Source of the DNA: Streptomyces albogriseolus
GTDB lineage: Bacteria; Actinomycetota; Actinomycetes; Streptomycetales; Streptomycetaceae
Length of the DNA stretch: 64,000 bases
Direction: 5' to 3'
Assembly: GCA_014650475.1 (NCBI GenBank)
Contig: BMVA01000002.1
Coordinates: forward strand, 248,001 to 312,000
Each line of letters opens with the position of its first letter. The stretch's first letter is position 1. Shown here piece by piece: positions 47,939 through 63,308 of the stretch. Below the pieces are notes generated by a model. It was not told the DNA's origin. It made no database searches and saw nothing but the letters and a program-made list of their open reading frames with translations. A program made the position numbers and the translations under genes.

Positions 47939-49204
47939 ATGACGACCGGGACGGACGGACACGGCAGGGCGGGCGCGGCGCGGGGCTTCCCGCTCGCGGC
48001 GGCACGGGGACTCGCGCTGGCGCTGGTGTCGCTGCCGGGGGCGGTGGTGTGCTTCGTGACGGCCGTGGTGTCGATCGGCCTGATCCCGGTCGGCGTCGGC
48101 ATCGTCACCACCCCGTACGTGCTGAAGGGGGTGCGGGCGTTCGCGGATCTGCGGCGGGTGCTGGCGGCGGAGTGGGGCGGGGTGCGGATCCCGCGCGCGT
48201 ACCGGCCGCTGCCGAAGGACGCGAACCCGTGGGGGCGGACGTTCGGCATGCTGAGCGATCCGGCGACCTGGCGGGACCTGCTGTGGCTGCTCGTCGACAT
48301 GACGGCCGGCTTCGTCACCGCGCTGCTGACGGCCGCCCTGCTCCTCTACCCGCTGGAAGGGCTGGCGGTGGCGGCCGGGCTGTGGCGGGTGCTGCCGGAC
48401 CCGTGGTGGTACGGGTTCGTGCCGGTGTCCGGGCAGGCGACCGCGCTGGGCGCCGGGGCGCTCGCCCTGGCGCTGCTCGCGGCCGGGCACGTGACCGCCG
48501 TACGGGTGCTGCGCGCGCACTTCCTGCTCGCCCGGGCCGTGCTGGCCCCGGGCGGGAGCGAGCTGGCCGAGCGGGTGCGGGTGCTGACCGAGACCCGGCG
48601 GGACGCGGTGGACTCCTCCGCCGCCGAACTGCGGCGCATCGAGCGGGACCTGCACGACGGGGCGCAGGCGCGGCTGGTCGCCGTGGGGCTCGATCTGGGG
48701 ACGATCGAGGCGCTGGTCGAGAAGGACCCGGCGCAGGCGCGGGAGCTGCTGGCGCGGGCCCGGCAGTCCTCGGCGGAGGCGCTGACCGAGCTGCGGGAGC
48801 TGGTGCGGGGCATCCATCCGCCGGTGCTGGCCGAGCGGGGGCTCGGCGACGCGGTGCGGGCGCTGGCGCTGCGGCTGCCGGTGACCACGGAGGTGAACGT
48901 GTCGCTGCCCGGGCGGGCCGACGCGCCGGTGGAGTCGGCCGCGTACTTCGCGGTGAGCGAGGTGCTCACCAACGCGGTGAAGCACTCCGGCGCGGACCGG
49001 ATCTGGGTGGACGTGCACCATGCGGAGGGCCGGCTGCGGATCACCGTCACGGACAACGGGCGGGGCGGTGCGGTGGCCGGGGCCGGTTCGGGTCTGGCCG
49101 GGGTGGAGCGCAGGCTCGGTACATTCGACGGCGTCCTGGCCGTCAGCAGCCCCGCGGGCGGCCCCACCCTGGTCACCGTGGAGCTCCCGTGCGCGTTGTC
49201 CTAG
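47939..49204 (+). CDS. NarL-type sensor histidine kinase with putative membrane sensor domain
   Basis: Kinase of 421 aa. The N-terminal membrane region has two pairs of helices (about 22-60, LALALVSLPGAVVCFVTAVV..., and about 120-190) of the Sensor-domain type; the catalytic part has IERDLHDGAQARLVAVGLDL with the phosphoacceptor His, YFAVSEVLTNAVKHSG (N box), and GSGLAGVERRLG. Ligand unknown; the repeated short loops suggest membrane or cell-wall stress sensing. CAGACT ends 6 nt before the ATG at 47939, so it may be leaderless. The response regulator overlaps its 3' end. Confidence 0.93.
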   Translation: MTTGTDGHGRAGAARGFPLAAARGLALALVSLPGAVVCFVTAVVSIGLIPVGVGIVTTPYVLKGVRAFADLRRVLAAEWGGVRIPRAYRPLPKDANPWGRTFGMLSDPATWRDLLWLLVDMTAGFVTALLTAALLLYPLEGLAVAAGLWRVLPDPWWYGFVPVSGQATALGAGALALALLAAGHVTAVRVLRAHFLLARAVLAPGGSELAERVRVLTETRRDAVDSSAAELRRIERDLHDGAQARLVAVGLDLGTIEALVEKDPAQARELLARARQSSAEALTELRELVRGIHPPVLAERGLGDAVRALALRLPVTTEVNVSLPGRADAPVESAAYFAVSEVLTNAVKHSGADRIWVDVHHAEGRLRITVTDNGRGGAVAGAGSGLAGVERRLGTFDGVLAVSSPAGGPTLVTVELPCALS

Positions 49205-49842
49205 CCGAAGACCTCTTCCTGCTGCGCGACGGACTGGTCCGGCTGCTCGAGGCGCACGGCTTCGAGATCGCGGCGGCGGTGGCGTCCGGCCCCGAGCTGA
49301 CCCGGGCGCTGGCCGAGGAGCAGCCGGACGTCGCCGTGGTCGACGTGCGGCTGCCGCCGACGCAGACCGACGAGGGGCTGCAGTGCGCGCTGGAGGCCCG
49401 GCGCGGGCGGCCCGGACTGCCGGTGCTGGTGCTCTCCCAGCACGTGGAACAGCTGTACGCGCGTGAGCTGCTGGCCGACGGCAAGGGCGGGGTGGGCTAT
49501 CTGCTGAAGGACCGGGTGTTCGACGCGGAGCAGTTCGTGGACGCGGTGCGGCGGGTGGCGGCGGGCGGCACGGCCATGGACCCGCAGGTGATCCAGCAGT
49601 TGCTGGCGCGGCGGTCGGCCGAGGACCGGCCGCTGGAACGGCTGACGCCCCGGGAGCTGGAGGTGCTGGAGCTGATGGCGCAGGGGCGGACCAACGCGGC
49701 GATCGCGGCGCGGCTGGTGGTGACGGAACGGGCCGTCGCCAAGCACACCGCCAACATCTTCGCGAAACTGGGCCTGGAGGTGTCGGACGACGACAACCGT
49801 CGCGTGCTGGCGGTTCTCGCGTATCTCGACCACGGCCGGTGA
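49189..49842 (+). CDS. NarL/FixJ-family response regulator
   Basis: Response regulator of 217 aa. VRVVLAEDLFLLRDGLVRLL starts the receiver, phosphoacceptor Asp is in VAVVDVRLPPTQTDEG (the TQTDEG extension after the Asp is typical of this subfamily), and the HTH contains LTPRELEVLELMAQGRTNAAIA and RAVAKHTANIFAKLGL. GTG start at 49189 overlaps the kinase gene by 16 nt, with GGAG upstream inside it. Partner of the adjacent kinase; candidate target is the secreted DUF1996 gene 213 nt downstream. Confidence 0.94.
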   Translation: MRVVLAEDLFLLRDGLVRLLEAHGFEIAAAVASGPELTRALAEEQPDVAVVDVRLPPTQTDEGLQCALEARRGRPGLPVLVLSQHVEQLYARELLADGKGGVGYLLKDRVFDAEQFVDAVRRVAAGGTAMDPQVIQQLLARRSAEDRPLERLTPRELEVLELMAQGRTNAAIAARLVVTERAVAKHTANIFAKLGLEVSDDDNRRVLAVLAYLDHGR

Positions 49843-50055
49843 AACCGGACGCCGGGCTTCACGCCGGGTGGAGCACCCACAACTCCCGGTATCCACAAGG
49901 CTGTTGAAACCTACGGAACCGCACTGACTTCGCACCGATTCCTGTGACGGGTGAACACCCGTGGGGCGGGCCGCGTACTCATGGGCGCCGCTTCCCCTCA
50001 CGGGCGCCTCGATGCCCCGCACAGGGATGCCCCGCAAGGAAGTCAGAGGAGTTCC

Positions 50056-51585
50056 ATGGGACGCAACACAAGAAAACGCCGTACACCGCTGGCCACGAAG
50101 GTGATAGCCGGGGCGGCGGCCCTGGCGATCGGTGGGGGCGGTCTGGTCTGGGCCAACTTCTACGCCTCGGCGCACGAGGAGAACGGGGGGCACAACGCCA
50201 CCAAGTCGGGGCAGGTCCGGGTCGCCACGATCAACTGTCCGGACGTGGGCCAGAAGCTGACCAAGGTGCCCCGCAAGGCGCGCTGGGGCGTCGCGCGTGA
50301 ACTGGCGCGGCTCGACCGCCAGATCACGGACGCGTACACGCGTCTCGCCGAGACGCGCCAGGCGCAGGCGGGCGACGCGAACTACGTCGACAACGCCATC
50401 CTCGGTCCGCTGAAGGACAAGCGCGTGGCCACCCTGGACCGCATCAACATCAACATCAAGCGGGCCGGCGGCCAGGAGCGCGACCTCAACCGGTTCGCCC
50501 GCTGCCAGGGCGTGCCCGCCGAGCAGCCCGCCGACGGTGACGGCGGCCAGGACGGCGGAGGCCAGAACGACGGCGGCCAGAACGACGGCGGGCAGAACGA
50601 CGGCGGGCAGGACGGCGGCCAGAACGGCGGCGGCCAGGACAACGGCGGTCAGGCCGGGAACGGTCCGGTGGCGGACGACTTCATCCGCATCGAGGACGTC
50701 CAGCCGGGCACCCGCAACCTGCCCAACGGCCTCCCCGCCAACGGCGACACCGGCTCGACCGGCAGCTTCACCACCGTGTGCGGCACCAACGAGAACGCGC
50801 TGCGCAACTCGGACAACGTGATCGTGGCGCCCGGCGTCAGCAACGGCGCCCAGCACCAGCACGACTACGTCGGCAACCAGGCCAACAACGCCTTCGCGAG
50901 CGACGAGGACCTGGCGAACGGCGACACGAGCTGCCAGAACCAGGGCGACCGGTCGTCGTACTTCTGGCCCGTGCTCCGGATCCAGGACGGTACGCAGGAC
51001 ATCGACCAGGGCCAGCCGGGCGGCGGCCAGGACGGCAACGTCGGCAAGATCGTCGCGCCCACCGCGGCGGAGCTGAAGTTCGTCGGCAACCGCACGAGCG
51101 ACGTCGTCGCGATGCCGAGGGCGCTGCGCATCATCACCGGTGACGCGAAGGCCTTCACCAACGGCCTGAACAACGCCAACACGGCCTGGAGCTGCACCGG
51201 CTTCGAGGACCGCCAGGTGACGGACAAGTACCCGATCTGCCCGGAGGGCAGCGGCGTGGTCCGTACGACCAGCTTCCAGAGCTGCTGGGACGGCCAGAAC
51301 ACCGACAGCGCCAACCACCGCACGCACGTCGCCTTCGTCGGCGGGGACGGCGCCTGCCCGAACGGCTTCCAGGCCATCCCCCAGCTCCAGGTCCGCCTGG
51401 TGTACGACAACATCCCGGCCCCGCAGATCGACAACGGGCAGCTGGTGAACCCGTACGCGGTGGACACCTTCCCGGAGCAGCTGCACAAGCCGATCACCGA
51501 CCACAACGACTTCATCAACTTCTTCGACGAGGACCTGATGAACGAGATGGTCGAGTGCATCAACAGCGGCCGCGACTGCCAGTAG
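50056..51585 (+). CDS. Secreted DUF1996 protein
   Basis: Exported protein of 509 aa. Signal segment at about 12-35 ([21 protein letters not shown]) after RKRR. Residues about 55-150 form a helical segment bounded by Cys ([10 protein letters not shown] and RFARCQG). A Gly/Gln/Asn/Asp repeat linker covers about 160-205. The DUF1996 domain (about 210-509) has [25 protein letters not shown]-like cysteines, [30 protein letters not shown] and [18 protein letters not shown]. In fungi and streptomycetes such domains occur on secreted, often wall-associated proteins; activity unknown. GAGGAG precedes the ATG. Confidence 0.88.
50536..50650 (+). repeat. Short tandem repeats encoding the GGQND linker
   Basis: Variable 9-15-bp units such as GGCGGCCAGAACGAC repeat about eight times and encode [10 protein letters not shown]. 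Linker between helical segment and DUF1996 domain; prone to slippage. Confidence 0.75.
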
Positions 51586-51667: not shown

Positions 51668-52099
51668 TCAGCCGTGGTGGCCGCCCTTGTTGTGGCTGCC
51701 GCCGGGGTTCATGTGCTCGGAGCCCTCCTCCAGGTCGCCGCCGAGCGTGCTCCGCAGCGCCTCGACCGTCCCCTCCTCGCCGACGGCGACCCACTTGCGG
51801 CCGACGAGGTAGTAACCGCCGTAGTCCTTGGCCGTGTTGAGCCATTCGCGCTGGCCGCGGTCGGTGGCGAAGGTGGCGAGGACGTACTTCTCGCCGCCCT
51901 TCTCGCACAGCGCCTGCCGGATGGTGTCGGCGTCGGTCTGCATGTCGGGGTCGCACTTCGCCTCGGCGGCCAGCTTCTCCAGGCTGCCGGTGGCGGTGGG
52001 CGGCACCTCGTGCTCCCCGTGGCCGCCGGACCCGCAGCCCGCCAGCGCCAGGGCCGCCACCGCGCAGGTCAGCGCGAGCTTCGGTCGGGTCACCCTCAT
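51668..52099 (-). CDS. Putative lipoprotein, 143 aa
   Basis: Signal peptide MRVTRPKLALTCAVAALALAGC with lipobox LAGC (Cys 22), then Gly/His-rich residues and a small domain with KCDPDMQTDADTIRQALCEKGG (two cysteines probably paired), YVLATFATDRGQREWLNTAKDY and GGYYLVGRKWVAVGEE. The C-terminus is His/Gly-rich (SHNKGGHHG) and may bind metal. No family name known to me. The ATG at 52099 has GGAGGA at 4-9 nt; the 36 extra codons upstream lack a signal peptide. Confidence 0.8.
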   Translation of the reverse strand: MRVTRPKLALTCAVAALALAGCGSGGHGEHEVPPTATGSLEKLAAEAKCDPDMQTDADTIRQALCEKGGEKYVLATFATDRGQREWLNTAKDYGGYYLVGRKWVAVGEEGTVEALRSTLGGDLEEGSEHMNPGGSHNKGGHHG

Positions 52100-52291
52100 G
52101 TGTTCCTCCGGTCCTGACGGCGACATCGTGGGGCGGCGACATGCCGCACGGAGCCCCCGCACGGGGCCCTCGGCATTCGATACGGCTGCGGCGCGCCCGG
52201 CGCTCAATCGCCGCGCCGGATCCGCGCGGCCGGTGGCCGGAAGGGGCGCGGGGCCAGGTGACCATCGGCGGATTCGCTCGTTCTGCTGAAC

Positions 52292-54214
52292 GTGCAGTCA
52301 CAGGATGCCGCCGCCCAGTCCCCCGCGCCCTCCTCCCCGGCCGGTCCGGCCGTGGACGTCGAACAGGCCGAGGCCGCGCTCGTCGAGCACTATCCGCGGC
52401 TCGTGCGGCTCGCCTATCTGGTGCTGCCGTCCCGCATGGGCCGCACCCGGCGGGTGCTCACCGCGCACGCCCTGGTCCAGCGGGCGCTGCCCCGGGGCCG
52501 GTCCGACGCGCCGCTGATCCCCTCCCAGAGCGCCGGCCGGGACGGCGATCCCGGTTACGCGCTGGTCCGGCTGCACGTGGTGCGGTCGGCGCTGGAGGCG
52601 GGCCTGCCGCTGCGCCGCCGGGGCCTGCCCAAGCGGTCCCAGCTGCCGCCGCTGCTGCCGCAGGTGTGGGGTCTGAAGGTGTTCCCGCGGCCGGGCGGCG
52701 CCGACGAACTGGCCCTGGACCAGCGGCTGTCGGCGCTGTCCGGGCCGGCCCGTGCCGCGCACGCGCTGCGCGGTCTTGAGCGGCTGCCGGACGCCGACGT
52801 GCGCCGGGTGCTGGACGACGCGGGCGTCACGGATCCGGACGCCGCGCTGGCGGAGGCCGACGGCATCCCCGACCCGTACCGGCTGCTCGGGTCCCCCGAG
52901 TTCGACCCCTGTTCGCTGCAGGCCCGGCCGACGGACCTGCTGCGCCGCCGCCGGCATCTGAAGGCCGGGCTGGTCGGGGCGGCGGCGCTGGCGGTGTGCG
53001 GGGCGCTGCTGTCGATGCCCGGGGACGGCTGGGGCGCCGACGGCCCGGCCGCTCCCCCGTACGCGCGCAACCCCGCCGCGCAGGCCGCGCTGGACCCGGC
53101 GCGGCTGACCAGGGTGCCGGCCTCGGCGTGGAGGACGTCGGCGCGCACGGACTTCTCGGTGTGGCCGGCGCGCGGCACGCTCACCGGCGACCGCGCGCTG
53201 CTGCGCCGCGCGCTCGCCGTGTGGGCCCGGCCGGGTGAGGGCGTCACGGCGTCGGCCACCCCGGGCACCCCCGCCGGCGGGCCCGCCGGACCGCCCCAGC
53301 TGCTGTACGCGGGCACGGTGGACGCCGCGCGCGTGGTGATCCTGTACGACGGCTGGCGTCTGGCCCGGTACGCCGAGCCGCGGGAGGGCGCCCGGGGCGC
53401 GGCCCTGGACCTGGCGCGGGTGGACGGGGCCGGGCGGGCCGGGGCGAGCGCGGTGGTGCTGAGCCGCTCGGACGGCAACGTCCGCTTCCTGGTCGCCCCG
53501 TGGGTGCGCGAGGCGGGCGAGCGGGACCTGCGGGAGCCGGCTGCGGGCGCGAAGGATCTGCCCCTGGAGGACGGGGTGACCGGGCCGTTCGTCCCGGGGC
53601 AGGGACGGGAGCCGTGCACGGCGTGGAACGCGCTGGAGCTGACCGACGGCGCCGGCGCCCGGCTGCTCACCGACCTGGGCGAGCTGGTCCCGGCGCGGCT
53701 GACCACCGGCCGTCCGGGCGAGGCGAAGGACGTGTCCGGCGCGAAGGCGCTGCGCGCCTGGGAGCCGTACGCCTGCTCGCTGGCGGTGATGCGGTCGGCG
53801 GGCGTCCGCAGCGTCAACGCCTGGGCATACGCGGAGCAGCCGCTGCCCGGCGGCGACGGACGGGCCGAGTGGCTGTGCACGCGCGGCGAGACCTGGCGGG
53901 GTACCGGGGCGCGGGTGCTGGCGCAGTTCCACACGCCGGGCGCGCGGTACGGGGCGGTGGCGGCGCGCGCCGAGGACGTGCCGGCCTGCGGGGAGCGGCA
54001 ACCGGACGTGCTGGCCGGGGTGTTGTGGAAGTCCGCCGACGGCGCCTGGCACCTGCTCGCGGCCGGCAGCGACGGGGTGGAGTCCGTGGAGGCGACCGGC
54101 GGGGTCGAGGGGAAGGCGAAGGACCGGCTGCTGTCGGTGCGTGCCGAGAAGGGTGCGCGGGCCGACCTCAGGGGCACACTTGAGGGCGGGGGGTCGGTCG
54201 GCGGGCTGGGGTGA
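52292..54214 (+). CDS. Membrane protein with sigma-factor-like cytoplasmic N-terminus
   Basis: Protein of 640 aa, no named family that I know. Residues 25-112 read like a decayed sigma-70 region 2: EAALVEHYPRLVRLAYLVLP, then ALVRLHVVRSALEAGLPLRRR, resembling the region 2.4 pattern of ECF factors. Residues 141-190 (LDQRLSALSGPARAAHALRG) resemble region 4 without a clear recognition helix. One membrane helix follows (about 224-242), then about 390 extracytoplasmic residues with four or five Cys (EPCTAWNALELTDG, YACSLAVMRS, WLCTRGETW, PACGERQ). GTG start at 52292. Next gene is a TetR regulator. A one-piece membrane signalling protein is an inference. Confidence 0.75.
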   Translation: MQSQDAAAQSPAPSSPAGPAVDVEQAEAALVEHYPRLVRLAYLVLPSRMGRTRRVLTAHALVQRALPRGRSDAPLIPSQSAGRDGDPGYALVRLHVVRSALEAGLPLRRRGLPKRSQLPPLLPQVWGLKVFPRPGGADELALDQRLSALSGPARAAHALRGLERLPDADVRRVLDDAGVTDPDAALAEADGIPDPYRLLGSPEFDPCSLQARPTDLLRRRRHLKAGLVGAAALAVCGALLSMPGDGWGADGPAAPPYARNPAAQAALDPARLTRVPASAWRTSARTDFSVWPARGTLTGDRALLRRALAVWARPGEGVTASATPGTPAGGPAGPPQLLYAGTVDAARVVILYDGWRLARYAEPREGARGAALDLARVDGAGRAGASAVVLSRSDGNVRFLVAPWVREAGERDLREPAAGAKDLPLEDGVTGPFVPGQGREPCTAWNALELTDGAGARLLTDLGELVPARLTTGRPGEAKDVSGAKALRAWEPYACSLAVMRSAGVRSVNAWAYAEQPLPGGDGRAEWLCTRGETWRGTGARVLAQFHTPGARYGAVAARAEDVPACGERQPDVLAGVLWKSADGAWHLLAAGSDGVESVEATGGVEGKAKDRLLSVRAEKGARADLRGTLEGGGSVGGLG

Positions 54215-54279: not shown

Positions 54280-54975
54280 ATGGGTACCGGGGTGCGTCGG
54301 AGGATGGGAGTCGAGGAGCGCCGGCAGCAGTTGATCGGCGTGGCTCTCGAGCTGTTCAGCAAGCGTTCCCCGGAAGAGGTCTCGATCGACGAGATAGCGT
54401 CCCGGGCGGGCATCTCGCGTCCGCTCGTCTACCACTACTTCCCCGGCAAACTGAGCCTGTACGAAGCCGCGTTGAGGCGGGCGGCGGAGGATCTGTCGTC
54501 CCGGTTCACCGAGCCGCACGAAGGTCCGCTGGGGACGCGGCTGCGGCGGGTGATGGCGCGCTTCTTCGACTTCGTGGAGGAGCACGGCCCCGGCTTCTCC
54601 GCCCTGATGCGCGGCGGCCCCGCCGTGGGCTCCTCGACCACCAACGCGCTGGTGGACTCGGTGCGTCAGGCCGCGTACGAGCAGATGCTGGCGCACATGG
54701 GCGTGGTGGGCCCGGCGCCGGCCCGGCTCGAGCTGGTGGTGCGCTCGTGGATCTCGCTGGTGGAGTCGACGGCGCTGATCTGGCTGGACGGGCGGCGGGT
54801 GCCGCGCGAGGAGCTGGAGACCCAGCTGGTGCAGGACTTCGCGGCGCTGGCCGCGGTCGCCGCGGCCCGGGACGAGGAACTCGCCACGCTGCTGCGGGGA
54901 CTGGTCAAGCAGGAGCCGGGCGACGGCCCGTTCACCGACCTCGCCGCCCGGCTGATCTCCCTGGCCGGGGAGTGA
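54280..54975 (+). CDS. TetR-family transcriptional regulator
   Basis: Regulator of 231 aa. N-terminal DNA-binding domain (about 10-65) with RRQQLIGVALELFSKRSPEE and the HTH VSIDEIASRAGISRPLVYHYFPGKLSLYEAAL; C-terminal ligand domain about 80-215, containing FFDFVEEHGPGFSALMRGG. The subfamily resembles regulators of lipid or efflux genes; ligand unknown. The ATG at 54280 is used; an internal ATG eight codons later (MGVEERRQQ) is possible. Convergent with the isomerase gene, 6 nt between stops. Confidence 0.92.
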   Translation: MGTGVRRRMGVEERRQQLIGVALELFSKRSPEEVSIDEIASRAGISRPLVYHYFPGKLSLYEAALRRAAEDLSSRFTEPHEGPLGTRLRRVMARFFDFVEEHGPGFSALMRGGPAVGSSTTNALVDSVRQAAYEQMLAHMGVVGPAPARLELVVRSWISLVESTALIWLDGRRVPREELETQLVQDFAALAAVAAARDEELATLLRGLVKQEPGDGPFTDLAARLISLAGE

Positions 54976-55396: not shown

Positions 55397-60805
<5,409 letters not shown>

Positions 60806-60915
60806 GGCGTGAACTCCTTGCGCTTACGGCTCATTGGGTCCGACCCCACGCCCCGGCGGAGCCTGTTTCGGCCACATCACCGGAGCGTCGGCGTGACCGT
60901 ACCGTCGTTGAAAGG

Positions 60916-60946
60916 CTTACAGCAATAGTCGTGAAAATGTCGGCAA
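60916..60946 (-). promoter_or_regulatory. Possible maltose-type control region upstream of pulA
   Basis: On the minus strand, TTGCCG (60946-60941) and TTGCTG (60925-60920) flank an AT-richer stretch, followed by CTTTCAACG. The same two hexamers, closer together, occur upstream of the neighbouring alpha-amylase. Streptomyces amylase genes are known to be controlled by MalR/Reg1 through TTGCAG-like repeats; whether these are such sites is inference. Confidence 0.3.
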
Positions 60947-61072
60947 GAACTTCCAGCGGGAGCTTTCCGGCAGGAGCGGACGAGTCCGGCGGGCACGGAG
61001 GGGGAAACGGCGCGCCGCCGGTCTCCTGTCGGGGAGTCCGGCGGGCGCGGAGTGCGGGTGGCGGATGGCCCG

Positions 61073-61741
61073 TCAGGCCGCCGCGGTCGCGCAGATGTAG
61101 TCGTACGGACGGCCGATCGCGAGCGTCAGCTTCAGCGGGTCCGTGGTGCCCGAGGGGCACTCGGCCTCCGTCTTGGTCAGGTCCAGGACCTTGTAGTCGG
61201 CGGACCCGGCCTGGGCGCAGGCGATCTCCTGGGCGCCCGCGTCGATGCAGTCACCCTTCACCAGCTGCCCGCCGCCCGCGCCCGCGTCACCGGGGTGGTC
61301 GCCGGACAGATTGCGCCCGCAGACGGTGCTGTTGGGGATGCCGCCGCTCTCGGAGCCGCCGAAGGAGAGGGACACCTGGATGATGATGTCGGTGCCGGCC
61401 GGGCACTGGATGGAGTCCGGCAGGATGGCCGCGTCCATGATCTCGAGGGCCTTGAAGGTGGCGCCGGGGTCGTCGCAGTCGAACGCCTGGTAGCTGTCGC
61501 CGGACCCTTCGGGGTCCGGGCCGCCGCAGTCGCCGGCCTTCCACTCGCCCGACTTCTCGTCCGGCGCCGTGGAGGACGACGAGGACGACGGCAGCGGCGA
61601 GGAGGCGGACGAGGAGTCGTCGTCGTTCTTGTAGACGTTGTAGCCGACGATCGCGCCGAGGACGATCAGCGGGACCAGCAGCGCCCGCAGGCGTGCCGCG
61701 ACACGTCCGGGCGGGCGTCCGGTGGTGTTGTTGTAAGCCAT
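61073..61741 (-). CDS. Single-pass membrane protein with two Cys-rich repeats (LppU-like)
   Basis: Protein of 222 aa. Membrane helix at about 20-38 (ALLVPLIVLGAIVGYNVY), a Ser-rich linker (DDDSSSASSPLPSSSSSST), then two tandem repeats of one small fold: about 66-145 (KAGDCGGPDPEGSGDSYQAF to VCGRNL) and about 160-222 (VKGDCIDAGAQEIACAQAGS to YDYICATAAA), each with GDC, a DC/AC, a mid C and a C near the end. The pattern resembles LppU/SCO3897-type domains; function unknown. GGGGGAG upstream. Sits between pulA and the amylase, so possibly part of the starch-inducible block or an insertion in it. Confidence 0.75.
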   Translation of the reverse strand: MAYNNTTGRPPGRVAARLRALLVPLIVLGAIVGYNVYKNDDDSSSASSPLPSSSSSSTAPDEKSGEWKAGDCGGPDPEGSGDSYQAFDCDDPGATFKALEIMDAAILPDSIQCPAGTDIIIQVSLSFGGSESGGIPNSTVCGRNLSGDHPGDAGAGGGQLVKGDCIDAGAQEIACAQAGSADYKVLDLTKTEAECPSGTTDPLKLTLAIGRPYDYICATAAA

Positions 61742-61887
61742 TGGACGGCTCCCCCTGCGGCGCGGAAGACGGACGCGTGGAAGGGATCGCGCCGCCTGTC
61801 CTCACCCAGCGGGGGCCGGTGCGGACCCCGTGATCACGCTAACGTCCGGCGGCCACGGAACCGGCCGCCGGACGTCACAGTTGTGCT

Positions 61888-63261
61888 TCAGCAGGTGCTC
61901 TTGCCCGCGTACACGGCGAGGGCGGTGTTGCTGCCGAGGGTCGCCGTGAGCCGGCCCGAGCCGTCCACCGTCACCGGCTTGTCGCTCTGCACGTCGCAGT
62001 ACGTGCCCGCCGGGAGGGAGGTCTGGTAGGTGCGGGTCAGGGAGCCGGACTCGTGGTTGATCGCCACAAAGCCCTTGCTGCCCCGGCCGAAGGCGATGGC
62101 GTCACCGCCGTTGTCCCACCAGTTGGTGACCGCCTGGCCCCGGGTGGCGTTGCGGAAGCCGACCATGGACCTGATCTCCCGCCAGTTGTGCTGGCACTTC
62201 CAGCCGTTCTGCCAGCAGGCGTCCACCCGGCCGCCGTTGGGGGGACCGGCGTCGTGGTCGGTGAACTCGTAACCGGAGTTGATGTCCGGGGCGCCGTAGG
62301 GCCAGGCCAGCATGAAGACGTTGGCCAGGGTGTAGGTGGCGTTGTCCTTGTAGCTGAGCGTGGAGCCGTTGCGCTCGGTGTCGTGGTTGTCGACGAAGAC
62401 GCCGGCCGAGCCGCTCGTCAGATAGCCCCAGCCCTCGCCGTAGTTCTTCAGGTAGGCCAGGTTCTCGTTGTTGAAGACCCGCTTGAGGTCGTAGGCGTAG
62501 CGGAACTCCTGGACGTCGCCGGTGCCGGTGTACTCGGTGGGCTGGACGGCCTCGCCGGCGCCGAAGATGACCTCGTGCTTCCAGTAGGCGGAGGGGTTGG
62601 TCAGACGCGACTTGATGTTGGCCAGGTCGGCGGCGGGGATGTGCTTGGCCGCGTCGATGCGGAAGCCGTCCACGCCGAGGGAGAGCAGGTCGTTCATGTA
62701 CCGGGCGATGGCTCCGCGGACGTAGTCCTCGCCGGTGTCGAGGTCGGCGAGGCCGACCAGTTCGCAGTTCTGGACGTTCCAGCGGTCGCCGTAGTTGTTG
62801 ATCTGCGACGTGCAGTTGTCGAAGTCGTACGAGGAGTAGAGGCCGGGGTAGGTGTACTTCGTGTACGACGAGCCGCCGGTGCCCGTGCCGCTGCCGGCGG
62901 ACATGTGGTTGATGACGGTGTCGGCGACGACCTTCACGCCGGCCGCGTGACACGTGTCGACCATGTTCTTGAAGGCGGCGCGGTCGCCCAGACGTCCGGC
63001 GATCTTGTAGCTCACCGGCTGGTACGACGTCCACCACTGGGAGCCCTGTATGTGCTCGGCGGGCGGGGAGACCTGCACGTAGCCGAAGCCCGCGGGGCCG
63101 AGGGTGGTGGTGCACTCGCGGGCGACCGAGGCGAAGTTCCACTCGAAGAGGACGGCCGTGACGTCCTTGGAGCCGGGCGGGGAGGCCTCCGCCGCCGTCG
63201 GGGTCATGACAACCGAGGCGGCCGCGAGGGCGGCGATCCCGGCGAGGGTTCTGCGTGCCAT
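61888..63261 (-). CDS. Secreted alpha-amylase (GH13)
   Basis: Extracellular endo-amylase of 457 aa. Signal peptide [20 protein letters not shown] ending at [12 protein letters not shown]-barrel motifs: [13 protein letters not shown] (region I, Ca site), [11 protein letters not shown] (catalytic Asp), FGAGEAVQ (catalytic Glu), [11 protein letters not shown] (third Asp). The C-terminal beta domain ends at Ala-Gly-Lys-Ser-Thr-Cys; there is no starch-binding module. ATG at 63261 chosen with AAGGA 8 nt upstream; an ATG five codons earlier also exists. It supplies maltodextrins to the downstream maltose system. Confidence 0.96.
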
Positions 63262-63308
63262 GTGGGGATCCTTCATCGTCGAAGGGTGTGGGGAGTACCG
63301 GCAGGGGC

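Follow-up and report, generated by a model that had tools for sequence, protein, structure and literature searches.

We describe a Streptomyces protein in which a single chain links a sigma-like domain, by way of a membrane helix, to a large outer domain. Its gene lies at positions 52292-54214 of the 64,000-nucleotide stretch of DNA that was analysed here and is referred to as the window (Streptomyces albogriseolus, assembly GCA_014650475.1, contig BMVA01000002.1, positions 248,001 to 312,000 of the forward strand). Computation supports the descent of the cytoplasmic part, sigma2 and sigma4 alike, from a SigE-type extracytoplasmic function (ECF) sigma factor, and the best overall explanation, to which we assign a probability of about one half, is that the protein is a sigma-derived, membrane-tethered mimic that signals by protein contact. 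ECF sigma factors, membrane anti-sigma factors and anti-anti-sigma factors are normally separate proteins. If the explanation is true, this family, which a whole-protein profile search detects in 109 of the 150 genomes sampled from its taxonomic family, would show a route from a sigma factor to a signalling adaptor, in which the scaffold was kept, the charge of the DNA-reading helix was reversed and the domain became anchored in the membrane.

Sigma factor ancestry of the cytoplasmic domain

The open reading frame (ORF) is found where an earlier note on this DNA had placed it, and the gene and the sigma-like parts of its product are as follows:

52292..54214, forward strand: gene for the 640-residue membrane-tethered sigma-like protein (GTG start at 52292, stop at 54212-54214)
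52349..52609, forward strand: sigma2-like part, residues 20-106, with predicted helices 23-44, 51-63 and 87-103 (hhalign, AlphaFold2 (AF2), VIA-align)
52649..52714, forward strand: linker motif between the sigma-like parts, residues 120-141, consensus about LPxVWGLRLFPRSGGADELA
52700..52867, forward strand: sigma4-like part, residues about 137-192, with predicted helices 137-146, 151-161, 167-176 and 182-189 (hhalign, AF2, alignment, VIA-align)

The sigma-like helices quoted in the earlier note are present and conserved in the homologue alignments, and its claim that the cytoplasmic part is derived from sigma2 and sigma4 agrees with AF2, VIA-align and, together with its controls, hhalign. Compared with 11 sigma factors from the same genome (the eight above the TIGR02983 cut-off and the next three), the N-terminal alignment reached a probability of 97.8 and a score of 64.2 over 149 columns, or 65.4 on match columns only; against 26 ECFs, the probability was 97.2 and the score 57.8, and the two sigma-like halves gave 60.1 and 84.3 when compared separately. 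The controls yielded 1.1 for the outer domain and 4.7 for the reversed alignment, and the top score of 300 match-column shuffles was 12.0, as against the real 65.4. Among 100 all-column shuffles, a single one reached 131 (over 41 columns), which we treat as a gap-column artefact, and the next highest was 9.2. Chance resemblance to sigma factors is therefore ruled out by shuffles, reversal and the outer-domain control.

Family profiles tell a different story. The window protein has no match in Pfam or NCBIfam up to an E-value of 1, and in a set of 40 relatives, Sigma70_r4_2 is matched by one (E 0.11) and PhyR_sigma-like by one (E 0.075). In own-genome searches with PF08281 and TIGR02983, the gene is absent among the matches listed, of which there are 86 for TIGR02983 up to E 10 (cut-off 141.55 bits); sequence searches of the PDB up to E 10 gave no match to the protein. 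When the genome itself was searched with the domain profile, the window gene was the sole match, so no sigma factor of this genome is close enough to be detected in this way. The earlier note had held that an unrelated fold or a profile search without a sigma-70 hit would speak against its proposal; the family profiles indeed provide no such hit, whereas the predicted fold, the profile-profile comparison and a reverse search that used a profile of the family itself all say sigma, and it is on these three that our conclusion is based. As none of the sigma family profiles tried here picks up the window protein, such proteins may be overlooked elsewhere.

In the reverse search, the domain profile matched three proteins outside the family among 394 genomes of the class (in G167, at the second place of G083 and in G204), with E-values of 9.4e-5 to 0.0016. 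Their best NCBIfam match is TIGR02983, with 135, 178 and 132 bits, so that one of the three passes the cut-off; they are the three that were typed among six possible-sigma places outside the family, and do not include G190, G298 and G493. A fourth sigma factor was found with the whole-protein profile (L088, E 1.9e-4) and matches Pfam Sigma70_r2 and r4. According to VIA-align, the predicted conformation of the sigma-like domain is closed, unlike the open polymerase-bound form.

The domain is nevertheless altered at the sites that would matter for a sigma factor. The following counts refer to a 68-row homologue alignment, which consists of the window protein, 39 of 43 genome-contig loci and 28 chosen loci from wider genome searches and is a subset of the homologues found. 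The last predicted helix of the sigma4-like part (182-189) corresponds in position to the recognition helix, and it is acidic: in the region 4.2 stretch, the homologues have on average 0.71 Lys and Arg and 3.06 Asp and Glu residues, a net charge of -2.35 that rises above zero in two sequences, as against 3.23, 0.38 and +2.85 in the 26 ECFs, where it is above zero in 25. The degraded DNA-recognition residues suspected in the earlier note are thus borne out. In region 2.2, an Asp present in 23/26 ECFs is replaced by Ala, Ser or Gly in 60/68 homologues and a Glu present in 18/26 ECFs by Arg in 62/68; a Gln is kept in 67/68, one His is invariant and Leu is kept at neighbouring positions. We take the Asp, Gln and Glu to be core-binding residues. 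The linker is conserved about as well as the helices, with a mean top-residue frequency of 0.83 and at least 90% at 10 of its 22 positions, and was not seen, by eye, in the 11 same-genome sigma factors aligned with it. Overall, mean conservation amounts to 0.70-0.87 in the sigma-like helices and linker versus 0.68 in the outer domain, with 0.65 in the recognition helix and 0.46-0.50 in the loops.

Membrane segment, outer domain and origin

The remainder of the protein comprises three parts:

52892..52954, forward strand: juxtamembrane stretch, residues 201-221, with an Arg cluster and a near-invariant C207 (conservation 0.84; C207 in 65/68)
52955..53026, forward strand: single transmembrane helix, residues about 222-245 (hydropathy)
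53027..54211, forward strand: outer domain, residues about 246-640 (AF2, weak Foldseek and VIA matches, Cys count)

Hydrophobic windows of 19 residues peak within residues 222-245, and the single helix and subsequent Cys-containing outer part of the earlier note are thereby recovered; by the positive-inside rule, the N-terminus should lie inside and the C-terminus outside. The window protein has Cys residues at positions 207, 236, 442, 495, 529 and 566, the last four of which are invariant (68/68). The outer domain is predicted by AF2 to be mostly beta; its Foldseek and VIA matches are weak and heterogeneous, many of them being propellers, and it is possibly propeller-like. The motif H-x3-C-x2-C, which we take to be a zinc-finger (ZAS-like) motif, occurs in none of the 68 homologues.

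By eye, the juxtamembrane stretch resembles the cytoplasmic stub of proteins that are encoded after SigE-type sigma genes. Downstream of each of the three typed sigma factors lies the gene for a protein that, by eye, has a short cytoplasmic stub, a cluster of Arg residues and a single membrane helix. In the genome of the window, where 26 sigma loci were examined for downstream membrane proteins, three of the eight SigE-type genes over the cut-off (L145, L147, L148) precede such a stub protein and one (L144) a longer-stub one; below the cut-off, L149, L153 and L157 likewise precede a protein with a stub and a membrane helix. Since the window protein's ARPTDLLRRRRHLKAGLVGAAALAV fits this pattern of Arg cluster and one helix (by eye, with no alignment statistic), the comparison suggests a fusion of a SigE-type sigma gene with the downstream gene of its membrane partner.

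More distant cousins take other forms. In another actinobacterial family, short cousins with open frames of 255-333 residues (L082 and L083, each with a pair of genes, spaced by about 8.1 and 4.6 kb, as well as L084, L085 and L086) combine a degenerate sigma-like part and a membrane helix with a charged tail in place of the large outer domain. Two sigma-like cousins, at L081 (1087-2004) and L087 (1627-2145), have no membrane helix by eye and are apparently soluble pseudo-sigmas. A piece of the G470 cousin (L229) gave no NCBIfam match.

Distribution and selection

The ORF has a third-position guanine-plus-cytosine content of 0.95, and in the alignment its start codon is kept across homologues along with an element upstream of it. 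A genome search finds the gene in single copy in its own genome; its closest named relatives, at 91-93% protein identity, are in S. griseoincarnatus, S. werraensis, S. althioticus, S. pseudogriseolus and S. cellulosae. At the class level, the whole-protein profile matches 35 of 296 genomes, eight of them outside the taxonomic family and mostly with weak or partial matches. The two halves lie within one open frame in 39 of the 43 genome-contig loci, so orthologues do keep them fused, as the earlier note had asked; three loci are apparently frame-broken (L036, L038, L039) and one is at a contig end (L041), and these four were omitted from alignments A1 and A2. An apparent remnant of a second copy, two short frames resembling the sigma-like part, is seen at L089 (1879-2299).

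Pairwise omega values range from 0.27 to 0.41 for the whole protein (seven comparisons) and, by part, from 0.09 to 0.43 (sigma2-like), 0 to 0.59 (sigma4-like) and 0.31 to 0.46 (outer domain); for some short segments, namely the linker, the membrane helix and the N-terminus, single pairs reach 0.65-1.11. These computations support an old fused form under purifying selection. The sigma-like domain has been altered but is not in decay. We rejected simple decay, the decayed version considered in the earlier note, because the protein is widely conserved and evolves under purifying selection.

A conserved promoter-like element

Directly upstream of the gene lies the following element:

52257..52282, forward strand: ECF-type promoter-like element GGTGACC-N14-TCGTT, ending 9 bases before the GTG

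Given this short distance to the start codon, the mRNA may be leaderless. The element is conserved in 42 aligned sequences, preceded by 35 bases without any position at 90%, and is found in its exact form at the same place in 33 of the 43 genome-contig loci. In a set of 36 further loci, which shares L035 and L042 with the 43, 26 score 11 or 12 of 12 with a spacer of 13-15 allowed (two with a spacer of 15 have the full score and one with 15 scores 11), whereas 50 shuffles each never exceed 10. The remaining 10 score 7-10, not above the best of their own shuffles; one of these, L100, carries the exact motif further upstream. The element thus accompanies the gene across genera and gene neighbourhoods.

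Within the genome (8.07 Mb), the exact motif has a single match. A looser form, GTRACC-N14-YCGTT, has 11 matches, seven of which, the window gene included, have a coding-like ORF within 60 bp (no random baseline). There are 16 bases between GTGAC and CGTT, in line with the 16-17 bp spacing of canonical ECF promoters (PMC7730460), and the element resembles, but is not identical to, the BldN motif CGTAAC-N16-CGTTGA (PMC2375139). On account of this spacing and likeness, the gene is probably driven by an ECF sigma factor, for which BldN is a candidate only; autoregulation is possible. The sigma factor in control of the gene could be sought directly by way of the conserved promoter. Across the whole genome, GTGAC-N16-CGTT has 33 forward and 13 reverse matches, with 5 and 4 for a backward-pattern control.

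Comparison with known systems

The window protein resembles SigE-type ECFs (TIGR02983) and their downstream membrane proteins, the former in the profile-profile and structural similarity of sigma2 and sigma4 and the latter, by eye, in the Arg-rich juxtamembrane stretch and single helix. It differs from them in being one fused chain, in its acidic recognition helix, its additional conserved linker and its large four-Cys outer domain, and in its absence among the TIGR02983 matches listed for the genome. PhyR, a soluble sigma mimic, acts as an anti-anti-sigma factor on its partner NepR. In the fold comparison, the modelled domain of the window protein shares the sigma-like fold of PhyR, but the scores of true sigma factors are just as good, so that fold by itself gives no preference to PhyR; moreover, the window protein has no Pfam receiver-domain match up to E 1, is membrane-anchored and actinobacterial, and no NepR-like partner was identified for it.

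The earlier note's premise that sigma factor and membrane partner are normally separate needs qualifying, as PMC8999054 and PMC5826349 describe ECF48, ECF52 (SCO4117) and ECF53 as membrane-fused actinobacterial ECFs that carry a zinc finger and are expected to be released by proteolysis. They share with the window protein a sigma domain, a membrane helix and an outer extension in one actinobacterial chain, but the zinc finger is their feature and its motif is missing from the 68 homologues; likewise, the sigma domain of SCO4117 is recognised by TIGR02937 (PMC5826349), while no sigma family profile matches the window protein. ECF57, which has a WD40-like C-terminal extension according to PMC8999054, is comparable in that a sigma-like part is followed by a beta-rich extension; in the window protein, however, the sigma part is degenerate, a membrane helix intervenes and the propeller is a possibility from the predicted fold. 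The window protein thus joins features of ECF48/52/53 and of PhyR and lacks a defining feature of each. In the open-licence literature, we found no account of such a protein, which is not proof of its absence from print, and term searches within PMC6767563 and PMC9205884 returned nothing on the window gene.

Mode of action and alternative explanations

With an acidic recognition helix and the replacement of two region 2.2 residues presumed to bind core, the sigma-like domain would no longer read promoters and would instead act by protein contact at the membrane. The outer domain most likely detects some signal at the envelope or wall, which would alter the binding of the sigma-like domain to a partner, for which an anti-sigma factor is the best candidate. 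Its capture would free a real ECF sigma factor, as PhyR does with NepR, and the probable ECF-type promoter of the gene would set up a feedback loop. We give the mimic the greatest weight because the protein is reminiscent of PhyR in its fold, its closed form and its lost DNA-reading residues. Its fully specified version, a one-component transmembrane pseudo-sigma that is expressed from an ECF promoter and relays an outside signal by capture or release of an anti-sigma factor, and would thus be a membrane-anchored actinobacterial counterpart of PhyR, is tentative.

Several points weigh against the mimic. Its mechanistic step is a proposal from sequence and predicted fold; the Foldseek E-values are weak (best 0.56), and helical models attain such VIA Z-scores through their common arrangement. 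The short cousins from other families align with the domain of the window protein at a probability of 99.7, but with SigE-type sigma factors at 43.8 (hhalign). Also against the mimic count the Gln kept in region 2.2, the frame at L101 described below and the lack of a partner gene, sigma or anti-sigma, that could be recognised by eye in the ORF lists of 17 divergent loci. Deep promoter conservation is the pattern expected of an autoregulated active ECF, and it keeps alive the reading that the protein is such a sigma factor, one whose DNA recognition has changed, which stays at the membrane until proteolysis frees it (as proposed for ECF52) and which transcribes its own gene from GGTGACC-N14-TCGTT. 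The movement of the element with the gene, its single full occurrence in the genome and the model of proteolytic release for ECF48/52/53 (PMC8999054) fit this reading. It is unlikely, however, in view of a recognition helix with a net charge above zero in 2/68 homologues, the mostly replaced Asp and Glu of region 2.2 and the lack of a sigma family profile reaching its cut-off; furthermore, the 11 matches of the looser motif (no baseline) mean that another ECF may own this promoter class.

Also unlikely is that the sigma-like domain serves as an adaptor or scaffold unrelated to transcription; the main function would then be that of the outer domain, for instance at the cell wall. Here, the four invariant Cys residues are joined by a frame at L101 (1967-3562), which as read retains the outer domain without a recognisable sigma-like part (an upstream frameshift is possible) and hints at an outer domain with a job of its own. 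Furthermore, no sigma or anti-sigma gene was recognised in the ORF lists of 17 divergent loci, inspected by eye without a family search, and no regulatory gene pairing was seen there; four cousin loci likewise showed no recognisable sigma or anti-sigma neighbour by eye. Yet conservation of the outer domain does not exceed that of the sigma-like helices and linker. Finally, the Gln kept in region 2.2 may allow polymerase binding, and together with the neighbouring Leu it would suit a membrane-anchored RNA polymerase decoy, whose sigma2-like part binds core without productive promoter recognition; since most homologues have small residues and Arg at the positions of the presumed core-binding Asp and Glu, and the predicted conformation is closed and not open, we consider a decoy very improbable.

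Gene neighbourhood

The next gene in the window encodes a TetR regulator (54280-54975), as the earlier note had stated. TetR is found in 41 of the 43 loci, but in 21 of these, 1.2-2.6 kb separate it from the homologue (the content of this gap was read in one locus, L011), and we dropped it as a partner because the neighbourhood varies. A divergent gene for a small putative lipoprotein (51668-52099; by eye, no Pfam match) is present in most of the 43 loci, and at 47951-51585, a pair of histidine kinase and LuxR-type response regulator lies with a DUF1996 protein; in L042, a relative of the LuxR-type regulator is directly upstream of the homologue. On the other side, starch-degradation genes adjoin at 55397-63276, including a pullulanase with an amylase domain and an alpha-amylase, and the homologue in L107 and L108 has beside it a gene that, by eye, looks alpha-glucosidase-like.
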